From positions 1 through 64,000 of the forward strand of contig JAJCYP010000015.1 in NCBI GenBank assembly GCA_029262855.1: a stretch of 64,000 nt of DNA. Reading direction: 5' to 3'. Shown here in pieces: positions 1,389 through 55,467 of this stretch. Each line of letters opens with the position of its first letter. Position 1 is the first letter of the stretch. The notes beneath the pieces were generated by a model. It did no database searches. It worked only from the letters and a program-made list of their open reading frames with translations, and was not told where the DNA came from. Position numbers and translations under genes: made by a program. The stretch comes from Bacteroidota bacterium. Lineage in GTDB: Bacteria; Bacteroidota; Rhodothermia; Rhodothermales; UBA10348.

Positions 1389-3173
1389 ATGTATTCCAAT
1401 AGAACACATTCCCTGAGGATTGCCTCGAGAGGCACCAGAGCCTGGATTCTGGTTGTCCTCACGGTGGCGGTTATACCATCGGCGGCCGTCGCTCAGTCCG
1501 CTCAAGAGGCCTATGCCACGGCGAATACCCTGATCCTGAATCAGCGTTGGAGCGAGGCCAGAGCCGCCATGATCAAGTACGCCCAGGACTACCCGGGAAC
1601 AGACCGCGCCGACGACGCCGGATTCTATTCCTGCTATGCCGTCGACCAGATGGCCTCGGCCCCGGCCGAGGCGTTCGAATGTTATTCCCGTTTCGTCGCC
1701 GATCACAGTCGCAGTAATTATGTCGACGATGCCAAGGGCGGAATGGTCCGCCTGGCTCGCCTCCTGAGCGAGACGGGGCAGCCGGAATACCAGAGCCGTA
1801 TTCGCGAGCTCGAACGGGGCGATGACGAGGACGTGGCCCTTGCCGCTCTGTACGCCTTGCAAAATCTGGGTGATGACACGGCCCTGGAGACGATTCTGAG
1901 TGTATACGACCGCTCCTCCAGCGAGCGCATTCGCGGCCGCATTGTCTATATGCTTGCCGACTTCGAAGGCGAGGACATCATTCCTCGACTGAAGGACATC
2001 GCCCTCACCGACGGTTCGCCGTCCGTGCGCAAGAACGCGGTATACGCAATCGGCAACCACGATCACCAGACCGAGGCCGCCGCGGCCCTTGCTGACATCA
2101 TGACATCGGACGCGGACATGGGTGTCCGAAAGGCCGCCGTCCATGCTCTTGGAAACCAGGATGGCGCTGGCATGGTCGGGATGTTGGCCGACGTGGCCCG
2201 CACTGGCGAGCCGGAATTGGGCAAAGCCGCGGTCTATGCCCTGGGTAACGTCGATTCCAGGGAGGCGCTTGACGCACTGCAGGCGGTCATTGCCGGGGGC
2301 GGCTCGGTGGACGTCAGGAAGGCCGCTCTGTACGCGATGAGCAATAACGAGTCTTCGGCATCCATTCCCTTCCTGGCGAACCTGGCCAAAACCTCCGACA
2401 GTGCCGACTTGGCCAAGGCTGCCACCTACGCCCTGGGCAATTTCGACGCGCCAGCCGCCTCGACGGCCCTGCTGGCGATAGTCTCAGAGGCCAGGTCCTC
2501 CGATGTTCGCAAAGCCGCGCTCTATGCCATTGGCAACCTGGGGTCATCCGATGCGCTAGCCAAACTCATCGATATCGCCACCAACGCGAATGATGCGGAG
2601 TTGCAGAAGGCCGCGGTTTACGCCATCAGCAATGTGGGGGGTGGGGAGGCGAGTCGCTCTCTGATTGTTCTCTTCCGAACTGCCACCAGCATCGAGGTCA
2701 AGAAGGCCATCATCCACAGCATCGGGAATCAGGGCGACTCCGGCGCCCGGGTGTTCCTGGTTCAGGTTGCGAAGGGCGATCCCGACCCGGATATCGCCAA
2801 GACGGCCGTATACGCCGTCGGGAATCTCATCGAAGGCGACGATCCGTCGGTGCTGATGGAGATCCTCTCAGACTCCAAGCATTCCGACGTCCGCCGGGCA
2901 GCGCTCCACGCCATAGGGAACTTTGGATCACCTGCCGCTCTGGATCTGCTGGATCAGATTGCCACCAGCGACCCGGATATCGAACAGCGCCGGGCAGCCA
3001 CCTTTGCCCTCGGCAATATCGATTCCGACCGAGCGGTGGACGCCCTCGTGCGGATCATCGAGAACGATTCCAGCACCCGGGTTCGCACAGCCGCGGTACA
3101 GGCCCTCGGCAACATCGGATCTGACAAGGCGAAGGCTGCCCTCCTGAAGATTCTGGAAGGCGGGGACGACTAG
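1389..3173 (+). CDS. Exported HEAT-repeat protein with about 14 repeats
   Basis: A signal peptide is visible (hydrophobic stretch AWILVVLTVAVIPSAAVAQ, cleavage likely after AVA near residue 36). A TPR-like helical segment of about 100 residues follows (LILNQRWSEARAAMIKYAQDYPG). From about residue 140 to the end there are roughly 14 tandem HEAT/PBS-lyase-type repeats of 31-33 residues, each with a core like VRKAALYAIGN. Such solenoids are protein-binding scaffolds; no catalytic motif is seen. It is the largest of four HEAT proteins behind the sigma/anti-sigma pair. The ligand is unknown. It could be a periplasmic assembly platform or a sensor partner for the anti-sigma factor. Confidence 0.85.
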   Translation: MYSNRTHSLRIASRGTRAWILVVLTVAVIPSAAVAQSAQEAYATANTLILNQRWSEARAAMIKYAQDYPGTDRADDAGFYSCYAVDQMASAPAEAFECYSRFVADHSRSNYVDDAKGGMVRLARLLSETGQPEYQSRIRELERGDDEDVALAALYALQNLGDDTALETILSVYDRSSSERIRGRIVYMLADFEGEDIIPRLKDIALTDGSPSVRKNAVYAIGNHDHQTEAAAALADIMTSDADMGVRKAAVHALGNQDGAGMVGMLADVARTGEPELGKAAVYALGNVDSREALDALQAVIAGGGSVDVRKAALYAMSNNESSASIPFLANLAKTSDSADLAKAATYALGNFDAPAASTALLAIVSEARSSDVRKAALYAIGNLGSSDALAKLIDIATNANDAELQKAAVYAISNVGGGEASRSLIVLFRTATSIEVKKAIIHSIGNQGDSGARVFLVQVAKGDPDPDIAKTAVYAVGNLIEGDDPSVLMEILSDSKHSDVRRAALHAIGNFGSPAALDLLDQIATSDPDIEQRRAATFALGNIDSDRAVDALVRIIENDSSTRVRTAAVQALGNIGSDKAKAALLKILEGGDD

Positions 3174-3211
3174 TCCTTCCCAATTCACATTAACACCCAC
3201 GAGGTAATGTC

Positions 3212-3856
3212 ATGAATATCAACAAAGTCCTGGGCTGGTCAGCCATCGTCGCTGCGAGCCTGCTCGTCGTGTCTCCATTCATCTCCAGTACCGGTGAAAC
3301 CGAGCCAGCGGATTCCACCAACGTCCACACGGTTTCAACTGCCACGGACACGGCCACTTCTGATGATCCGGAGGTAGCCAAGGCCGCGATCTATGCGCTG
3401 GCGAACTCCCTGGAGGAAAACCAGATCGACGTCCTGACACCGTTTGTAACCGAGGCCGCACACCCCGAGGTGCGGAAAGCAGCCATCTATGCGATTGGAA
3501 ATATAGGTGGCCCGGCGGCAGCCGAGTTTCTCCGGGAGACCGCAATCACCCATGCCGACATCCAGATCGCCAAGGCGGCCGTGTACGGGATGTCCAACCT
3601 CCTCGAGGATGACGACATCGCGCCGCTGGTATACATCCTGCAGAAGGCCGATCGCGTAGAGATCCGCAAAGCCGCGCTTTACCAGCTGGGCAACAGCGAC
3701 AGCGATGAGGCCGTGGCCGCGCTCGCGGATGTTGCCCGGAGTGGCGCTGATGGTGAACTCCGCAAAGCCGCCGTTTACGCGCTCGGCAACCACGAATCCG
3801 AGGCGGCACGCGACGTGCTGGTCGAGCTGCTTGGCAATCTCGGCGGACAGAAATGA
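3212..3856 (+). CDS. HEAT-repeat protein with N-terminal membrane or signal segment
   Basis: 214 residues. An N-terminal hydrophobic segment (VLGWSAIVAASLLVVSPFI, about residues 5-23) suggests export or membrane anchoring. After a Thr/Ser/Asp linker, about five HEAT repeats run from residue 50 to the end, each with the same KAAIYALGN-like core as the preceding gene. A GAGG ribosome-binding site lies upstream of the ATG, in the loop of a short inverted repeat (ACATTA at 3187-3192, TAATGT at 3205-3210). The stop overlaps the next start by four bases (ATGA). The strong likeness to its neighbours implies local duplication. Confidence 0.82.
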   Translation: MNINKVLGWSAIVAASLLVVSPFISSTGETEPADSTNVHTVSTATDTATSDDPEVAKAAIYALANSLEENQIDVLTPFVTEAAHPEVRKAAIYAIGNIGGPAAAEFLRETAITHADIQIAKAAVYGMSNLLEDDDIAPLVYILQKADRVEIRKAALYQLGNSDSDEAVAALADVARSGADGELRKAAVYALGNHESEAARDVLVELLGNLGGQK

Positions 3857-4659
3857 AAACCTCGGCATTCCTGCTTCTGCTCCTGGCCGTATGCATGCCG
3901 TCCGAGGGATTCAGCCAGGTTGTCATTCGTGCGCCTGCTGGTACCGGAGGCCTATCAGCAGCCTGGGAGTGGGCCATCAAACAGTCGGCGCCCCGCGCCG
4001 CGGAAGTGATCGCCGTAGTCTGGACCATCGATTCGGCCGGCGCGAACTGGCGATGGGACAACCAGGGGCCTCCGCTCTATGAACTCCTTGAACTTCCCGC
4101 AGCATCCGGAGCCAGAACGGCCATTGTCGCGATTGCAAAGAGGGGAGAGGTTACCAAGCTGAGCATACAGGACCTGGACTGGCCCCTTCGTCAAGGTGTC
4201 TCGCACGTGATTTTTTTGGGCGAAGCCTCCCAGGCGGAAAGCTTCGACTTGGTCTCAGAACTCGATCTGCGCTCGACCGATGTGCAAAGGGCCCGTCTAC
4301 ACGTTGCTGCGATTCACCACAACGTCCCAGCAGCCGGAACGATGATTCTGGAGGCACTGGGGTCCCAAAATCGAGACGTCCGAAAAGTGGCCGCCTACGC
4401 CTGGGCCCACTTTGGAGGGAAGGATGCACTGCCGCGTTTGACGGACTTGGCGGTGGGTGACACCGATGTGGCCGTGGCCAAGGCGGCGGCGTACGCGATT
4501 GGTTCGGTTGATGACACCGCATCCGTCGAAGCCCTCGTGGGCGTGCTGGACGACTCAACACGGCGCGAGGTTCGCAAGGCGGCGGCCTACGCGCTGGGCA
4601 ACTTGGGTTCGCCGGAAGCGAGGGCGGTCCTGATCCGCCTCATCCGCACAGAACAGTGA
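3853..4659 (+). CDS. Exported protein with C-terminal HEAT repeats
   Basis: 268 residues with a signal peptide (MKTSAFLLLLLAVCMPSEGFSQ). An N-terminal domain of about 120 residues has no family I recognise. About four HEAT repeats follow from residue 140; the last three have the cores VRKVAAYAWAH, VAKAAAYAIGS and VRKAAAYALGN. The start overlaps the stop of the preceding gene by four bases, so translation is coupled. It belongs to the HEAT group of the sigma-factor operon. The unique N-terminal domain distinguishes it from its paralogues and may give it a separate partner. Confidence 0.8.
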   Translation: MKTSAFLLLLLAVCMPSEGFSQVVIRAPAGTGGLSAAWEWAIKQSAPRAAEVIAVVWTIDSAGANWRWDNQGPPLYELLELPAASGARTAIVAIAKRGEVTKLSIQDLDWPLRQGVSHVIFLGEASQAESFDLVSELDLRSTDVQRARLHVAAIHHNVPAAGTMILEALGSQNRDVRKVAAYAWAHFGGKDALPRLTDLAVGDTDVAVAKAAAYAIGSVDDTASVEALVGVLDDSTRREVRKAAAYALGNLGSPEARAVLIRLIRTEQ

Positions 4660-5558
4660 TGCGGACCGTTGCCATCCTGGGCACCTTCCTGCTCTTGCCG
4701 GCTGCGTCCGGTCAGGTACACCATGCTCACGACCTGACGCTGGATCAGCTGTTCACGGCGTCCGCGACGTTGTCCCAGGAGACCGCGTCAGAGGCTGTCT
4801 GGGCCGGATATTCCATTCACCGCCAGATGTACGCAGATTCCCGGTTCGGGTGGTACAGCGCGGGCTCTGACCGCCCGGCCCTTGCCGAGATCCTTGGGGA
4901 CGGAACAACCCCGCATGGCCAGGAGGTGGCAGCGGCCGCCCGCCGCGCGCTGGCGGGTTTGGAGGACGAACAGCCTCTCGTGACAAAGGAGGTGGGGATC
5001 CTCTTCCAACTGATGCCAAGCCAGCAGACCATCAGCCAGATCCGCCTTGTTACCATGGACGCGCCAGCCCGCCTCGGCGGTGCCCCAATTCTGTGGGCAG
5101 GCAGTCGACCCGACAGCGAAAGTCTGGACTTTCTCGAGAGCCTTTGGACGGACCTGACCGACGAACTCCGTGAGGACGTCGTCACGGCAATCGGGGCGCA
5201 CGACCTACCGGATCGCGTCATGCCGTTGCTGGTAGAGGTGACGCGATCCTACGGGGATCGCGATGCAGGGGAGACCGCTCGGCACTGGCTGGCCGACCAC
5301 CTCTCAGTGGCGATGGGACTGCGGCCCGAATCGCGGGGCCGACGGACTTCTGATGACGAGGTTCGCCGCTCTGCCCTCTACGCCCTGGTGAATGTGGAGG
5401 AGGGGAGGGCCGGTGAAATGCTTGTCAGGCTTGTCACGTCCTCGCCGGACTCCAGGATTCGGCGCCTCGCCCTCATCCAATTGGCCCATCTCGATGGCCG
5501 TGCAGGCGAATCCGCGCTACTGAGAATGGCTGAGCGTTATGTACGAACCGGCGGTTGA
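4659..5558 (+). CDS. Exported protein with weak HEAT repeats, last gene of the sigma/HEAT operon
   Basis: 299 residues from the ATG that overlaps the previous stop (TGATG); a GTG one codon earlier is possible but less likely. A signal peptide is present (VAILGTFLLLPAASGQ). A His-rich stretch follows (VHHAHDLTLDQL). HEAT-like helical repeats are clearest near the C-terminus (VRRSALYALVNVEEG, IRRLALIQLAHLDG), and the middle is more divergent. No catalytic motif is apparent. The next gene is convergent and ends 25 bases away, so this is the operon's last cistron. Confidence 0.8.
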   Translation: MRTVAILGTFLLLPAASGQVHHAHDLTLDQLFTASATLSQETASEAVWAGYSIHRQMYADSRFGWYSAGSDRPALAEILGDGTTPHGQEVAAAARRALAGLEDEQPLVTKEVGILFQLMPSQQTISQIRLVTMDAPARLGGAPILWAGSRPDSESLDFLESLWTDLTDELREDVVTAIGAHDLPDRVMPLLVEVTRSYGDRDAGETARHWLADHLSVAMGLRPESRGRRTSDDEVRRSALYALVNVEEGRAGEMLVRLVTSSPDSRIRRLALIQLAHLDGRAGESALLRMAERYVRTGG

Positions 5559-6026: not shown

Positions 6027-6302
6027 CTCTAGTCCGGCATTGTGAACCCTCAATGAACGCATGAACGGGCGAAATACAAACAACTCACGAAGAAACAGTC
6101 GATATTCGTTGTAACGACTACTGGATCCAGGTCACGAATAGGCCCTTTCGCAGGCCACCATCGCGTGGTACGATGTTGCGCTGTGGCTCGAAATCGAGCG
6201 GGAGTTGGAAGGCCAATTCGCGTCGTTGGAGCTGGCCTGAGAGCCAGGCGCGGCACCGACCTCTGCCGGGATTCACAGACGCCATGCCTGCCGGACACTA
6301 TA

Positions 6303-7139
6303 ATGCGTCCCTCAGACCCCAATACGATGGAAATTCCTGCTTCAAAACAGTCACCAGCGTCCCGAAAGAGTGTTCAGGATCTTGCGCTGATCTTTATCGC
6401 GCTCGCTTACGGTGCTGACTCCGAACTCACCGACACCGAGATCGAGTCACTCACCGCGGCCATAGGAAGATGGAGACCCGACGATGAGCCGGACGAGATT
6501 CGCGAGATAGTGGTCGGCGCGCTCGCTGTGTTCGAGGCAGACGATTCAGGTGACGAGGTCGTCTCGGCCATCGAGTCGCTGGACGAACAACTCGTACCGT
6601 CATCCAAACAGCGTGCCCTGGAGGACGCCATGCTGATCGCTGAGGCGGACGGATTGTTGCTCAGCTCCGAGCGGACGCTGATATCCGTTCTTGCGGCTGC
6701 CTGGGACCTCCGTTCATCCGAGGCGGAGCTCATCGCAAAGACCACCGCCACGGTTGATGACCGTCCGGTCTGGACTCTGCTGCACGACATCGCGCTGCTC
6801 GCAATCGCAATAGCGCATGGCTCAGAGGGTGGAATTGATCGGCACGAGATCACGAGCATGATCACCAGACTCGGTGGATGGCGCTCTGATCTTGATCCAG
6901 ACGATTTGCAGGCCGTCATACGAACGGCTCTGGAAGTCTTTTCCGAGGTCAATCTTGTCGAAGTCCTGCAGCAGTGCGCCGTCAGTGTGCGGGAACGCCT
7001 GCCGCACGCCTTGCGCTTGATCGTGCTGGATGACCTGATTGCGGTCGCCGAGGCCGATGGCTCCATGAACCGCAACGAGGCCGACATGGTCGGCTCACTG
7101 GCGCAGGCCTGGCAGCTCGAGATTCGAATCGAGGCGTAG
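6303..7139 (+). CDS. Tandem TerB-like domain protein
   Basis: 278 residues from ATG 6303; a second ATG at 6327 is also possible. Two copies of an all-helical TerB-like (tellurite-resistance family) domain are visible, at about residues 20-140 and 150-275. Both end in the same acidic pattern (LEDAMLIAEADGLLLSSERTLI and LDDLIAVAEADGSMNRNEADMV), which shows an internal duplication. TerB domains bind divalent metal through acidic residues and often sit at the inner membrane face, but the role here is unknown. The 276 bases upstream, shared with the divergent CBS gene, show only a small palindrome (GCTCGA-AA-TCGAGC, 6186-6199). Confidence 0.7.
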   Translation: MRPSDPNTMEIPASKQSPASRKSVQDLALIFIALAYGADSELTDTEIESLTAAIGRWRPDDEPDEIREIVVGALAVFEADDSGDEVVSAIESLDEQLVPSSKQRALEDAMLIAEADGLLLSSERTLISVLAAAWDLRSSEAELIAKTTATVDDRPVWTLLHDIALLAIAIAHGSEGGIDRHEITSMITRLGGWRSDLDPDDLQAVIRTALEVFSEVNLVEVLQQCAVSVRERLPHALRLIVLDDLIAVAEADGSMNRNEADMVGSLAQAWQLEIRIEA

Positions 7140-7219: not shown

Positions 7220-7249
7220 AATGCAACATAATTAGCCTTATGTTGCATT
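7220..7249. other. dif: dif-like Xer recombination site
   Basis: A perfect inverted repeat of two 12-base arms around a 6-base centre: AATGCAACATAA, ttagcc, TTATGTTGCATT. The 6-base spacer and the inner ends CATAA/TTATG match the layout of chromosomal dif sites. The right arm matches 9 of 11 bases of the E. coli XerD half-site. It directly abuts the start codon of a Xer-type tyrosine recombinase, as in single-recombinase systems such as XerS/difSL. The alternative is an autoregulatory operator for that gene. Confidence 0.7.
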
Positions 7250-8215
7250 ATGGATGCAGAGCAACAGAATGAAGGACTGGTCCCTCGCCGGGACGCGAGG
7301 CCTGGATTGCCCGGCAGTTTGCCCCACGGGTCGTCCCACGGGTTATCCCGCAGTGCAGGCTCGGATGAGGAACTCATCAACCTCTGGCTACGCGGCAAGA
7401 GCAAGAACACGGCCGAGGCTTATCGGCGTGATGTGACGCAGTTCGCTCTCTTTTTCGGCGGCAGCCTGCACTACGTTCGTCTGGAGGATCTCTGGGACTG
7501 GCACGACGAGATCCGTGATGAAGGAAACTCCCTCGCGACCATCGCCCGCAAGATCGCTTCGCTCAAGAGCCTTTTCAGCTTCGGCCATCGCATCGGCGTG
7601 CTTCCCGTAAACGTTGGTGCGGCGTTCTCTCTGCCGAAGATCCCAAGCCACCTCTCTGAGCGGATCCTTACCGAGGACGAGACGCGTCAACTCCTGACCG
7701 ACGAGGGCTCAACCCGAAATACGGTCCTGCTTCAGCTCTTCTACGCTTCCGGTGCGCGTGTTTCTGAACTCGCCAGCCTCACATGGGCGTCCGTGAGAGG
7801 CCGCAAAACGGCAGAGGGACACAAAACCGGGCAGATATCGCTTCTGGGAAAGGGCTCAAAGACGCGATCTGTGCTGCTGTCAGCCAATACCTGGAACCAA
7901 CTCCTGGCTCTGAAGAACTCCGAACTGGCCGCGGGTCACGGCCAGGCCGAGGACCCCGTATTCCGTTCTGCCAAGGGCGGTCCGCTCTCCAGGCAGCAGA
8001 TGTGGCGCATTGTTCGCAATGCAGCGCGTCGCGTGGGCCTGTCGCAAAAGGTGTCTCCTCACTGGCTGAGGCACGCCCATGCCTCCCACGCGCTTGATCG
8101 GGGTGCACCGGTTCACCTTGTCAAGGAAACGCTGGGACACGAGTCGCTGGCAACCACGAGCAAGTACGCACACGCTCGGCCCGATGACTCTTCGTCGAAG
8201 TACCTGGACATGTGA
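7250..8215 (+). CDS. Xer-type tyrosine recombinase/integrase
   Basis: 321 residues. An N-terminal SAM-like core-binding domain spans about 38-125 (LINLWLRGKSKNTAEAYRRDV). The catalytic domain follows, with the full active-site set visible: Arg170 (ASGARVSEL), Lys201 or Lys204 (GKGSKTR), His271 and Arg274 (HWLRHA), His297 (LGHES) and the nucleophile Tyr306 (SKYAH), at the His-to-Tyr spacing of nine seen in XerD. About 35 extra N-terminal residues are unusual. The perfect 12-6-12 inverted repeat abutting its start codon is the probable recombination site, so chromosome-dimer resolution is the favoured role. An integrase of a decayed mobile element is possible, but no other element genes are nearby. 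Confidence 0.88.
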   Translation: MDAEQQNEGLVPRRDARPGLPGSLPHGSSHGLSRSAGSDEELINLWLRGKSKNTAEAYRRDVTQFALFFGGSLHYVRLEDLWDWHDEIRDEGNSLATIARKIASLKSLFSFGHRIGVLPVNVGAAFSLPKIPSHLSERILTEDETRQLLTDEGSTRNTVLLQLFYASGARVSELASLTWASVRGRKTAEGHKTGQISLLGKGSKTRSVLLSANTWNQLLALKNSELAAGHGQAEDPVFRSAKGGPLSRQQMWRIVRNAARRVGLSQKVSPHWLRHAHASHALDRGAPVHLVKETLGHESLATTSKYAHARPDDSSSKYLDM

Positions 8216-8290: not shown

Positions 8291-8623
8291 ATGTCAGTTC
8301 CCGAAATTTCAGTCTCAGATCTGGCAGAACGCCGACAGGATGACCAGGCGCCAGAGTTCCTGCTTCTTGATGTGCGCCGGGAACAGGAGCGCAAGTTCGC
8401 CGACATTGGCGGCATCCACATCGAGATGTCGGAGATCCCAGGGCGCATTGGTGAACTGGAAGACTTCCTGGACCAGGAGATCGTGGTCTACTGCCGATCT
8501 GGTCAGAGATCCTCCCAGGTGGTCTACTTCCTGCGATCGCACGGCTTCTCTCGGGCCGTCAACCTGAGGGGCGGCATTCTGGCCTGGAGCCGCGAAATTG
8601 ATCCGGCCGTCCCACAGTATTGA
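8291..8623 (+). CDS. Single-domain rhodanese (sulfurtransferase)
   Basis: 110 residues forming one rhodanese domain. The active-site loop CRSGQRS (about residues 65-71, in VVYCRSGQRSSQVVYFLRSHGF) holds the catalytic Cys. The usual N-terminal LLDVRREQE strand and a C-terminal NLRGGILAW motif are present. It transfers sulfane sulfur to a thiophilic acceptor; the acceptor cannot be told from sequence. Its TGA overlaps the TTG start of miaA. The motif CRSGQRS rather than a phosphatase-like loop supports sulfurtransferase over arsenate-reductase activity. Confidence 0.88.
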   Translation: MSVPEISVSDLAERRQDDQAPEFLLLDVRREQERKFADIGGIHIEMSEIPGRIGELEDFLDQEIVVYCRSGQRSSQVVYFLRSHGFSRAVNLRGGILAWSREIDPAVPQY

Positions 8624-9567
8624 GCGCAGTATTGAGCACGCCGCGCATTCCGCTCCTCGCGGGTCCCACCGCGGCGGGAAAGTCTTCGGTTGCCATGGCG
8701 TGGGCAGAGCGCGAGTCGGGCGAAGTGGTTTCGTGCGACAGCCGGCAGCTCTACGCCGAGATGGAAGTCGGAACCGCCAAGCCCACCGGTGACGAACTCA
8801 AGCGGGTCCCGCACCACTTTGTCGGCGAAGCGAGCGTGGCAGATCCCTGGTCTGCCGGACGATTTGCCCGTGCGGCCGAAAAGCGCTTGACAGAGATTCT
8901 GGATCGGGATCACGCGCCCATCGTGGTCGGTGGCTCCACGCTCTACATCCAGGCACTCGTGGACGGCCTGGCGGATATTCCCCCAACCGACCCGGGCGTC
9001 CGGCAGGCTTTGAATGACAAGTTGACCCAGGTGGGCGCACAGGTGATGTATGAGGCCCTGCTTCGCGTCGATCCCGTATTCGCGGCCTCCCTGGATGAGA
9101 CCAAGAGTCAGCGCATCCTGCGCGGCCTTGAGGTCTACGCGTCAACCGGCCGACCGCTATCGAGCTATTTCGAGGCGGCTACACCTCCCTCCCACCGCTT
9201 CCACGTCATCGTCCTCAATATGGACAGGGAAACCCTGTACAGGAGGATCGATGCCCGAGTAGACCAAATGATGGCGGATGGGCTTCTGGCCGAGGTCCAC
9301 AGGCTCATGGAGGCCGGTTTTGATCCAAACGAGAATCCGCTTAGAACTATCGGCTACGCCGAACTGGCTCCGTGCCTGCTGGGTGAGCGGGAGGTCCCGG
9401 AAGCCGTCGCCCTGATCAAGCGTAACTCCAGACGCTACGCCAAGCGGCAGCTGACCTGGCTTCGGGGACGGGCAGATGCCGACTGGATGGAGGTGGATCC
9501 GGAGGCGCCGATCGAGCAGGCTGTTGAGACGTTAGACGGGATTCTGTCTGGGGACCAGGCGGAATAG
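8620..9567 (+). CDS. miaA: tRNA dimethylallyltransferase
   Basis: Transfers a dimethylallyl group to N6 of A37 in tRNAs that read UNN codons. The 315-residue length is typical. Key motifs are the P-loop GPTAAGKSS (about 15-23), DSRQLYAEMEVGTAKPT, and IVVGGSTLYIQALVDGL. The C-terminus (RNSRRYAKRQLTWLRG) carries the family's basic helix. A TTG start overlapping the rhodanese stop is chosen; another TTG lies four codons downstream, because a 12-base unit is tandemly duplicated here (CAGTATTGAGC at 8615 and 8627). The 3' end overlaps the convergent fusion gene by 36 bases. Confidence 0.93.
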   Translation: MSAVLSTPRIPLLAGPTAAGKSSVAMAWAERESGEVVSCDSRQLYAEMEVGTAKPTGDELKRVPHHFVGEASVADPWSAGRFARAAEKRLTEILDRDHAPIVVGGSTLYIQALVDGLADIPPTDPGVRQALNDKLTQVGAQVMYEALLRVDPVFAASLDETKSQRILRGLEVYASTGRPLSSYFEAATPPSHRFHVIVLNMDRETLYRRIDARVDQMMADGLLAEVHRLMEAGFDPNENPLRTIGYAELAPCLLGEREVPEAVALIKRNSRRYAKRQLTWLRGRADADWMEVDPEAPIEQAVETLDGILSGDQAE

Positions 9568-54229: not shown

Positions 54230-55467
54230 TGTTGCCCGACTCCTCAGAATCTCCGCGGTTGAAAGACCACTTTCCGCTTCCCTCCCTGGAGGCCTGGGAG
54301 GCGCGGGCCTGCAAGGACCTCGGTATCAGTACCCTGGCTGAGTCGGCGTGGGGTCCGGAGGGCGGGCCTTCCGTCCCCCCTTTGACCCGCTCGGTTGCCC
54401 CGGTCCCGATCCGGACCAGGCCGGGCTGGCGCTATGCCGAGCTTGTGGATGCGCAGCTTCCGGGACAGGCGGCTCTCGGCCTGCGTGACGCCTCGGGAGG
54501 AGCGGCCGATCTCGCGATTCTCCACTGTGGCGCTGGTGGACTGCCGATACGCCTCCTTCCCGATGTGATGCGTTCGACGCAGCTTCCTGTCGCTATTTCG
54601 GCGGGGGGCCTGTCGAAGGAGTCTGCGCAGATCCTGGCCCAGACACATTGCGTGGGATATCTGGTGGATCCGATTGCGGGCCATCTGCGCGGGGAGTCCG
54701 AGACAGACCTGCGATCCGCAGTCGACTCACCCCTCTCGGAGACCGGTCGCCGGTGCTACGCCGTGGACCTTCGAGCATGGGAGGAAGCGGGAGCCCCACC
54801 GGTCTATCTGGCTGCGGTTGCCTTTGCCGCTGTCGCCGACTGGATGGCGGCCCTCACCGAGCACGGAATGAACGGGAATGACGCCGCGGCCAGGCTCAGT
54901 GTCATCGTGCCGGCCAGCCATGAACTATTTCCGACAATCGCGCTGTTGCGGGCTGTTCGGGCCGGGCTGGCCAGGGTCCTGCGCGGGTTTGAGGCCTCAG
55001 CCGCCATCCCCATTGTGGGGGTCACCGCAGCTGCGGCACTGGAAGAGCGCGATCCGTATACAAACCTGATCCGGACCACCACCGCGGCGGTCGCCTCGGT
55101 GATCGGTGCGGTCGACTTCCTTTCCATTCGACCGTTTGACACAGTCGATACCTCGGAAGGCGATCGGGGCCGGCGCCTGGCGAGAAATATTGCCCATCTC
55201 CTCCGCCACGAGGGACACCTGGACAAGGTGGCTGATCCGGCTGCGGGATCCTTCTATGCGGAAGCCATGACGAGGGAACTGGGCGCGACAGCCTGGGACC
55301 TTTTTGCCGACTGGGAGACGCAGGGTGGCCTCACGGCCGTCCTTTCGAGCCTTGAGCTTGCAGAGATGCTCGGCACCTTCAGATCCGAACGGGAGCGGAA
55401 TCTGGAGAGCGGACAGATCAAAAGAATCGGCGTGAACCACTACGTGGAAGGTGAGGTGAGCGTATGA
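54229..55467 (+). CDS. mutA: Methylmalonyl-CoA mutase small subunit, short form
   Basis: 412 residues covering only the substrate-barrel part ([12 protein letters not shown] near 65; [54 protein letters not shown] at about 300-350). It ends at [15 protein letters not shown]. Usual bacterial small subunits are about 600 residues or more, with a second, cobalamin-domain-like half that is missing here. It should pair with the large subunit and stabilise it rather than catalyse. It overlaps mutB by four bases. Confidence 0.88.

Follow-up and report, generated by a model that had tools for sequence, protein, structure and literature searches.

A palindromic dif-like site abutting a single Xer-type recombinase gene in Rhodothermales: a candidate one-recombinase system for chromosome dimer resolution with plasmid and phage relatives

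Few single-recombinase systems for chromosome dimer resolution have been described, namely XerS, XerH, XerA, and XerL, and a review has raised the question of whether such systems derive from XerC/XerD or from elsewhere (PMC5357621). In the XerS/difSL system of streptococci and lactococci, one Xer protein is encoded right beside its site, near the terminus (PMC5357621), and the XerH/difH system of Campylobacter and Helicobacter likewise combines one recombinase with a site that usually lies near its gene (PMC5357621, PMC2731167). The XerL/dif system of the Legionellales also has one recombinase, with a dif site made of long uninterrupted inverted repeats of 10 and 12 bp, and in Coxiella a plasmid-borne homologue serves the chromosome (PMC9765430). 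The locus described here comes from a genome of the order Rhodothermales and was analyzed within a stretch of 64,000 nucleotides (the window). We consider it very probable that a 30-bp palindrome in this window is the chromosomal dif site, located at the replication terminus, and that the adjacent gene encodes the one recombinase acting there.

The site spans positions 7220 to 7249 (no strand assigned) and reads AATGCAACATAATTAGCCTTATGTTGCATT. It consists of a left arm, AATGCAACATAA (7220 to 7231), a centre, TTAGCC (7232 to 7237), that is not self-complementary, and a right arm, TTATGTTGCATT (7238 to 7249). A first-pass annotation of this DNA had described a perfect 12-6-12 repeat next to a Xer-type recombinase gene; the letters confirm the repeat, and the open reading frame (7250 to 8215, plus strand) encodes a full tyrosine recombinase of 321 amino acids with intact catalytic residues, referred to here as W. 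The annotation had also left one base between the site and the start codon, which needs correcting, given that the site ends at 7249, the ATG begins at 7250, and there are zero bases between them. Its match of the right arm to 9 of 11 bases of the Escherichia coli XerD half-site was reproduced, and the left arm also matches at 9 of 11; the arms of E. coli dif served as the reference for both XerD-arm and XerC-arm matching. With up to three mismatches allowed, the 30-bp site has a single match in the window (0 expected from 100 shuffles) and is single copy in the whole 4.74-Mb genome. W has a SAM-like domain (Pfam Phage_int_SAM_1, 3e-10) and a catalytic domain (Phage_integrase, 1.9e-29), its residues R170, K201/K204, H271, R274, H297, and Y306 are invariant among 17 aligned orthologues, and a profile search returned the XerD structure 1a0p as its best solved relative. 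The surrounding slot is marked upstream by a gene for a TerB-like protein (6255 to 7139) and downstream by a rhodanese-like gene (8291 to 8623) and miaA, encoding tRNA dimethylallyltransferase (8620 to 9567), all on the plus strand; these genes provide context, and the TerB-like gene lies outside the proposed mechanism. Farther upstream, positions 1389 to 5558 contain consecutive genes of which at least the first is HEAT rich (seven HEAT_2 stretches), preceded at 2 to 1353 by what appear, as read by eye, to be an ECF sigma factor gene and an anti-sigma gene.

Each of the described systems differs from this arrangement in several respects. Whereas difSL is 31 bp long and has an 11-bp centre between imperfect arms, the W site has perfect 12-bp arms and a 6-bp centre, and XerS has 356 amino acids to the 321 of W, whose score against the XerS model is 60.3 bits (cut-off, 267). 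XerH proteins have 354 to 362 amino acids and align with W over the C-terminal part only in a profile search, which falls short of full-length homology. In Legionella pneumophila, xerL and dif are more than 400 kb apart, while W abuts its site; XerL is also longer, has its catalytic tyrosine at position 387 rather than 306, and is described as a clade of its own, although in the symmetry of the site the two systems are alike (PMC9765430). Against the archaeal XerA model, W reaches 156 bits (cut-off, 220), and it lies outside the XerA branch of our tree. The likeness to XerCD/dif is extensive, comprising a length of 28 to 30 bp, a 6-bp centre, CATAA/TTATG inner ends, an FtsK gamma domain, KOPS-like polarity, and a skew switch, but XerCD has two active recombinases and different arms, in contrast to the W system, in which a single active recombinase goes with a pair of XerD-like arms. 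W also scores far below the equivalog cut-offs for XerD (181.7 versus 329.6 bits) and XerC (171.1 versus 335.15 bits). By these comparisons of sequence, the W system would be classed as neither XerCD, XerS, XerH, nor XerA. It nonetheless has the general marks of a single-recombinase Xer/dif system, with a full catalytic set, a single-copy site with inverted arms, no second active conserved Xer and, in relatives, a skew switch.

W and its site are kept in four families of Rhodothermales, with W orthologues showing 54 to 79% identity in its own family, 58 to 59% in family f15, 47 to 50% in f4, and 43 to 48% in f13; most of the relatives that carry names are metagenome bins assigned to Rhodothermales or Bacteroidota. 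In most orthologue-bearing genomes, the site lies 30 to 155 bp upstream of the aligned W start, and the orthologues with such an upstream site range from 47 to 79% identity. The core pattern used for the site search, AACRTAAN6TTATGTT, was found in 30 of 114 Rhodothermales genomes, compared with a single genome for a reversed control pattern. It is single copy in nearly all carrier genomes (G040 has it in three places) and tracks W across 60 genomes (16/4/1/39; Fisher P = 5e-10). The search for further motif copies and for conservation that the annotation had proposed favors its reading, with a motif that is single copy and co-occurs with the recombinase. Across the sites compared, hardly any variation is seen in the seven inner bases of either arm. 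Both arms fit the E. coli XerD arm at 8 to 10 of 11 positions and the XerC arm at just 4 to 6 of 11. The centre lacks symmetry and is most commonly TTAACC.

In the window and in several relatives, the site lies directly against the ATG or a short distance before it, and we therefore considered whether the palindrome might be a mere operator for repression of the W gene by W, its location at the terminus being incidental. Against this, several f15 genomes have a palindromic site that lies 0.9 to 3.2 kb from the W gene or on a different contig, and this displaced site remains near rhodanese-miaA. A site that stays put while the W gene moves should fit a recombination site, and a mere operator would not be expected to do so. 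The 12-6-12 layout is, moreover, the core-site geometry of tyrosine recombinases, and the site coincides with the skew peak across families. An operator-only function is thus hardly credible, and we return to the palindrome as a dif site.

Placement of the site at the terminus was the central claim of the first-pass annotation, which had predicted a switch in the sign of the GC skew. The assembly itself comprises 146 contigs; the one that holds the window is 78.6 kb long and extends just 7 kb to the left of the site. On this contig, skew is near zero left of the site and negative right of it. In seven relatives, including the congener G001, the sign does switch at or near the site, with skew sampled in 20-kb pieces and measured peaks up to ~15 kb from the site. 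Cumulative skew on a 115-kb contig of G001 reaches its maximum at 54,760, which is 190 bp from the site (54,950). The corresponding maxima and sites are 1,870,843 and ~1,874,750 in G038, 304,776 and 291,942 in G019, 95,794 and 80,689 in G029, and 136,398 and 150,463 in G043. The flip in G015 falls between the 300- to 320-kb and 320- to 340-kb stretches (site at 311,868), and that in G071 falls between ~3.10 and 3.15 Mb, where the transition is broad (site at 3,136,374). Gene orientation in the window also agrees with what had been claimed, since the open reading frame lists show mostly plus-strand genes up to 9.57 kb and mostly minus-strand genes from 9.53 to ~37 kb. The E. coli KOPS sequence is GGGNAGGG. 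Pooled over G019, G001, G015, and the window, 79 copies of this sequence are oriented towards the site and 13 in the opposite direction; it showed the strongest polarity among the 21 six-G patterns tried, and its polarity exceeds that of other GGGN[CGT]GGG sequences (P = 8e-5). An FtsK gamma domain is encoded as well.

Whether W would act alone depends on the other Xer proteins of the order. No canonical dif site (CATAAN6TTATGTTAAAT, up to one mismatch) was found in the genome that contains the window, and none of 60 Rhodothermales genomes has a protein above the XerD equivalog cut-off, a result that is weak alone since just 4 of 14 control genomes pass. Just two XerD-profile matches at E ≤ 1e-20 are present in each of G001, G002, G040, G050, and G059. 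The sole other Xer conserved across the order, which we call type A, occurs in 56 of 60 genomes. Its presence in nearly all genomes makes it the candidate partner if W shared the site with a second Xer, each on one arm, as XerC does with XerD; a left arm that is somewhat more variable than the right in some relatives, and Salinibacter-type genomes in which W lies beside a gene of a different Xer type (T2-like, see below) with an asymmetric site between them, would also suit such a pairing. Type A, however, has lost its two catalytic arginines, as seen in every copy in which both boxes were readable. In nine aligned copies, serine replaces the first arginine and threonine the second; box II is HSLTH in 30 of 30 copies checked by pattern, where an active Xer is expected to have HxLRH, and box I is GLSEIE or GMSEIE instead of GLRxSE in the 26 of these 30 copies that the pattern caught (the 30 copies come from genomes with W or T2 outside f15). 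The Salinibacter-type T2-like protein has lost the catalytic tyrosine and the box II residues, and the window site has two identical arms, both XerD-like. A two-recombinase system is therefore improbable, though less so than an operator-only function.

The type A gene of this genome (G000:C86:38022-38846; L006; orthologues L104 to L132) is highly conserved and keeps its tyrosine, and in G038 type A is found at 1,022,158, away from the terminus; judged by its residues, type A appears to be a conserved pseudo-recombinase. Other tyrosine recombinases are encoded elsewhere in the genome, for example on C103 (400 amino acids) and C54 (419 amino acids); these look like mobile-element integrases, and such proteins may act as helpers of W. 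Because the other conserved Xer is without catalytic arginines and both arms are XerD-like, a single recombinase likely acts at the site. The annotation's call for a survey of other Xer proteins thus ended with none over the XerD cut-off and with type A apparently inactive, and neither of the outcomes that it had listed against its own reading (a skew switch with another dif site elsewhere, or canonical xerC and xerD genes with an unconserved repeat) occurred. The sequence evidence gives good support to the reading of a one-recombinase dimer resolution site located at the terminus.

Most genomes that lack W carry a different Xer, T2, which is 43 to 100% identical within its group and ~25% identical to W. 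At about half of the loci examined, T2 is accompanied by an upstream 12-6-12 palindrome of its own, of the type ...GATAA N6 TTATC.... W and T2 loci are alike in that (rhodanese-)miaA comes next in many genomes and a TerB-like gene is often upstream, so that miaA adjoins both W and T2. The two are nearly mutually exclusive among 60 genomes, with W only in 16, T2 only in 30, both in 4 (G007, G038, G048, and G057), and neither in 10; neither was detected in G027, G033, G035, G041, G044, G051, and G054, and about seven of the relatives with neither have good or nearly good completeness. Within family f1, the W/T2 state switches at least four times when mapped on the type A tree. In G042, T2 and the skew peak are ~13 kb apart; in G049, T2 is close to a transition that is broader. 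As a genome-wide marker, the bare T2 core TGATAAN6TTATCA was rejected as too short, since some genomes contain several matches to it and many T2 genomes contain no match. The W and type A trees broadly agree, and the W/T2 pattern may reflect either horizontal swapping or an ancestral tandem pair with repeated loss.

Several individual loci illustrate how the two genes co-occur. In G007 (C44:642-2464; L024, L100), W and a T2-type gene lie in tandem before miaA, and the T2 protein looks recombinant, with a C-terminal part nearly identical to that of a congener and a divergent N-terminal part. In G038 (C1:1873811-1874677 and 1875355 onward; L145), G048, and G057, a degenerate T2-like gene lies beside an intact W gene; a two-protein variant is possible in Salinibacter-type genomes, judging from the asymmetric site between the genes there. 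The T2 genome G031 has a W-like palindrome, AACATAA AGGACG TTATGTT, at C184:49836-49855, and a more distant tyrosine recombinase is encoded ~120 to 140 bp downstream of it (C184:49977-50801).

Outside the order, the nearest relatives of W are plasmid recombinases (82 PLSDB records, mostly cyanobacterial). These plasmid-borne enzymes are simple tyrosine recombinases, mainly from cyanobacterial plasmids; they are ~40 to 50% identical to W, several with similar upstream palindromes, and they possibly belong to the "Cyan" subgroup of such enzymes (PMC8138268). The nearest relatives also include proteins of two phages of acetic acid bacteria, of viral contigs, and of diverse genomes. Most are annotated only as "tyrosine-type recombinase/integrase". 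While these relatives sit on plasmids and phages, the W site is at a chromosome terminus. Our tree places W together with its outside relatives, the cyanobacterial ones included, and the plasmid and phage proteins in a single group (SH-aLRT, 98), and XerD, XerA, T2, and type A fall outside it. A separate origin of W in f4, suggested by a quick tree, was not supported, since the tree that keeps all W proteins together has the higher likelihood (p-AU, 0.785), and a single W clade is not rejected.

Upstream 12-6-12 palindromes were found far more often than in shuffled sequence, at 19 of 56 relatives' loci with at least 10 matching arm positions (~1 expected) and at 28 of 63 viral loci (~1 expected), near-copies being counted separately. 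The palindrome of a Gloeocapsa plasmid is AATGCAACATAA ATTATC TAGTGTTGCGTT, and that of a Synechococcus plasmid is AATGCAAGATTA CTCTTC TACTCTTGCACT; other than in the palindrome-bearing examples, none was found at the plasmids examined. Recombinases annotated as "integrase" with their own upstream dif-like palindrome were noted on plasmids and in diverse phyla (L237, L238, L239, L258, L272, L273, and L267) and at the plasmid loci L324, L325, L326, and L332. Palindrome-bearing recombinases of this kind are probably plasmid multimer resolution modules. Our literature search returned nothing specific on dif/Xer in Rhodothermales or Salinibacter or on such plasmid recombinases in cyanobacteria.

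That the closest outside relatives of W belong to plasmids and phages might indicate that W is the integrase of a mobile element inserted here, with the palindrome as its attachment site, rather than part of a housekeeping system. The address beside miaA is, however, conserved across genera, whole genera carry W, and each genome has one site, located at the terminus. Element genes are absent beside W, and the Rhodothermales site, as one pattern with the centre TTANCC, was not found in the viral contigs scanned, so that no element exploiting this dif site was found. We regard the mobile-element explanation as very unlikely. A plasmid-type module serving as the chromosomal dif system is the best reading of these sequences, and we infer the direction of transfer from the company that W keeps.

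From the sequence-based parts of this study (anatomy, conservation, terminus position in relatives, T2 exchange, and family relationship), we infer binding, catalysis, FtsK activation, and dimer resolution as follows. In a chromosome dimer, which has two dif copies, four W protomers would occupy the two XerD-like half-sites of each copy. FtsK would load on GGGNAGGG-like polar sequences converging on the site, gather the dif copies at the septum, and activate W. W would then cut at the edges of the 6-bp centre via Tyr306, with strands exchanged pairwise, and the dimer would be resolved because the asymmetric centre TTAGCC fixes the direction. Since the site occupies the 30 bases before the ATG, bound W may also restrict its own expression, and autoregulation may thus accompany recombination.

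By descent, W is a member of a clade of recombinases found on plasmids and phages, many with their own palindrome, and in Rhodothermales it sits at a chromosomal address between TerB-like and rhodanese-miaA genes that is held in other species by T2, often with a different palindrome. We give roughly even chances to the fuller history in which a multimer resolution module of plasmid or phage type became the chromosomal dif system in part of the Rhodothermales and was repeatedly traded with T2 at one address, the dead type A being kept. The presence of T2 in the same slot, the plasmid and phage kinship, and the persistence of the f15 site after the gene moves all go beyond the first-pass annotation.

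To the small set of described single-recombinase systems, W would add one that is distinct, related to plasmid and phage recombinases, and traded with T2 at one locus between species of one genus; exchange within one genus therefore makes a comparison before and after the swap possible. A short symmetric site for a single enzyme offers a handle for locating the terminus in draft genomes of Rhodothermales, and this type of site may help to recognise resolution sites on the many plasmids whose recombinase is labelled only as an integrase. If the proposed history is true, chromosome dimer resolution would be a replaceable cassette, and its intermediates would be G007, with W and T2 in tandem, and the Salinibacter-type genomes, in which an active W lies beside a dead T2-like gene.
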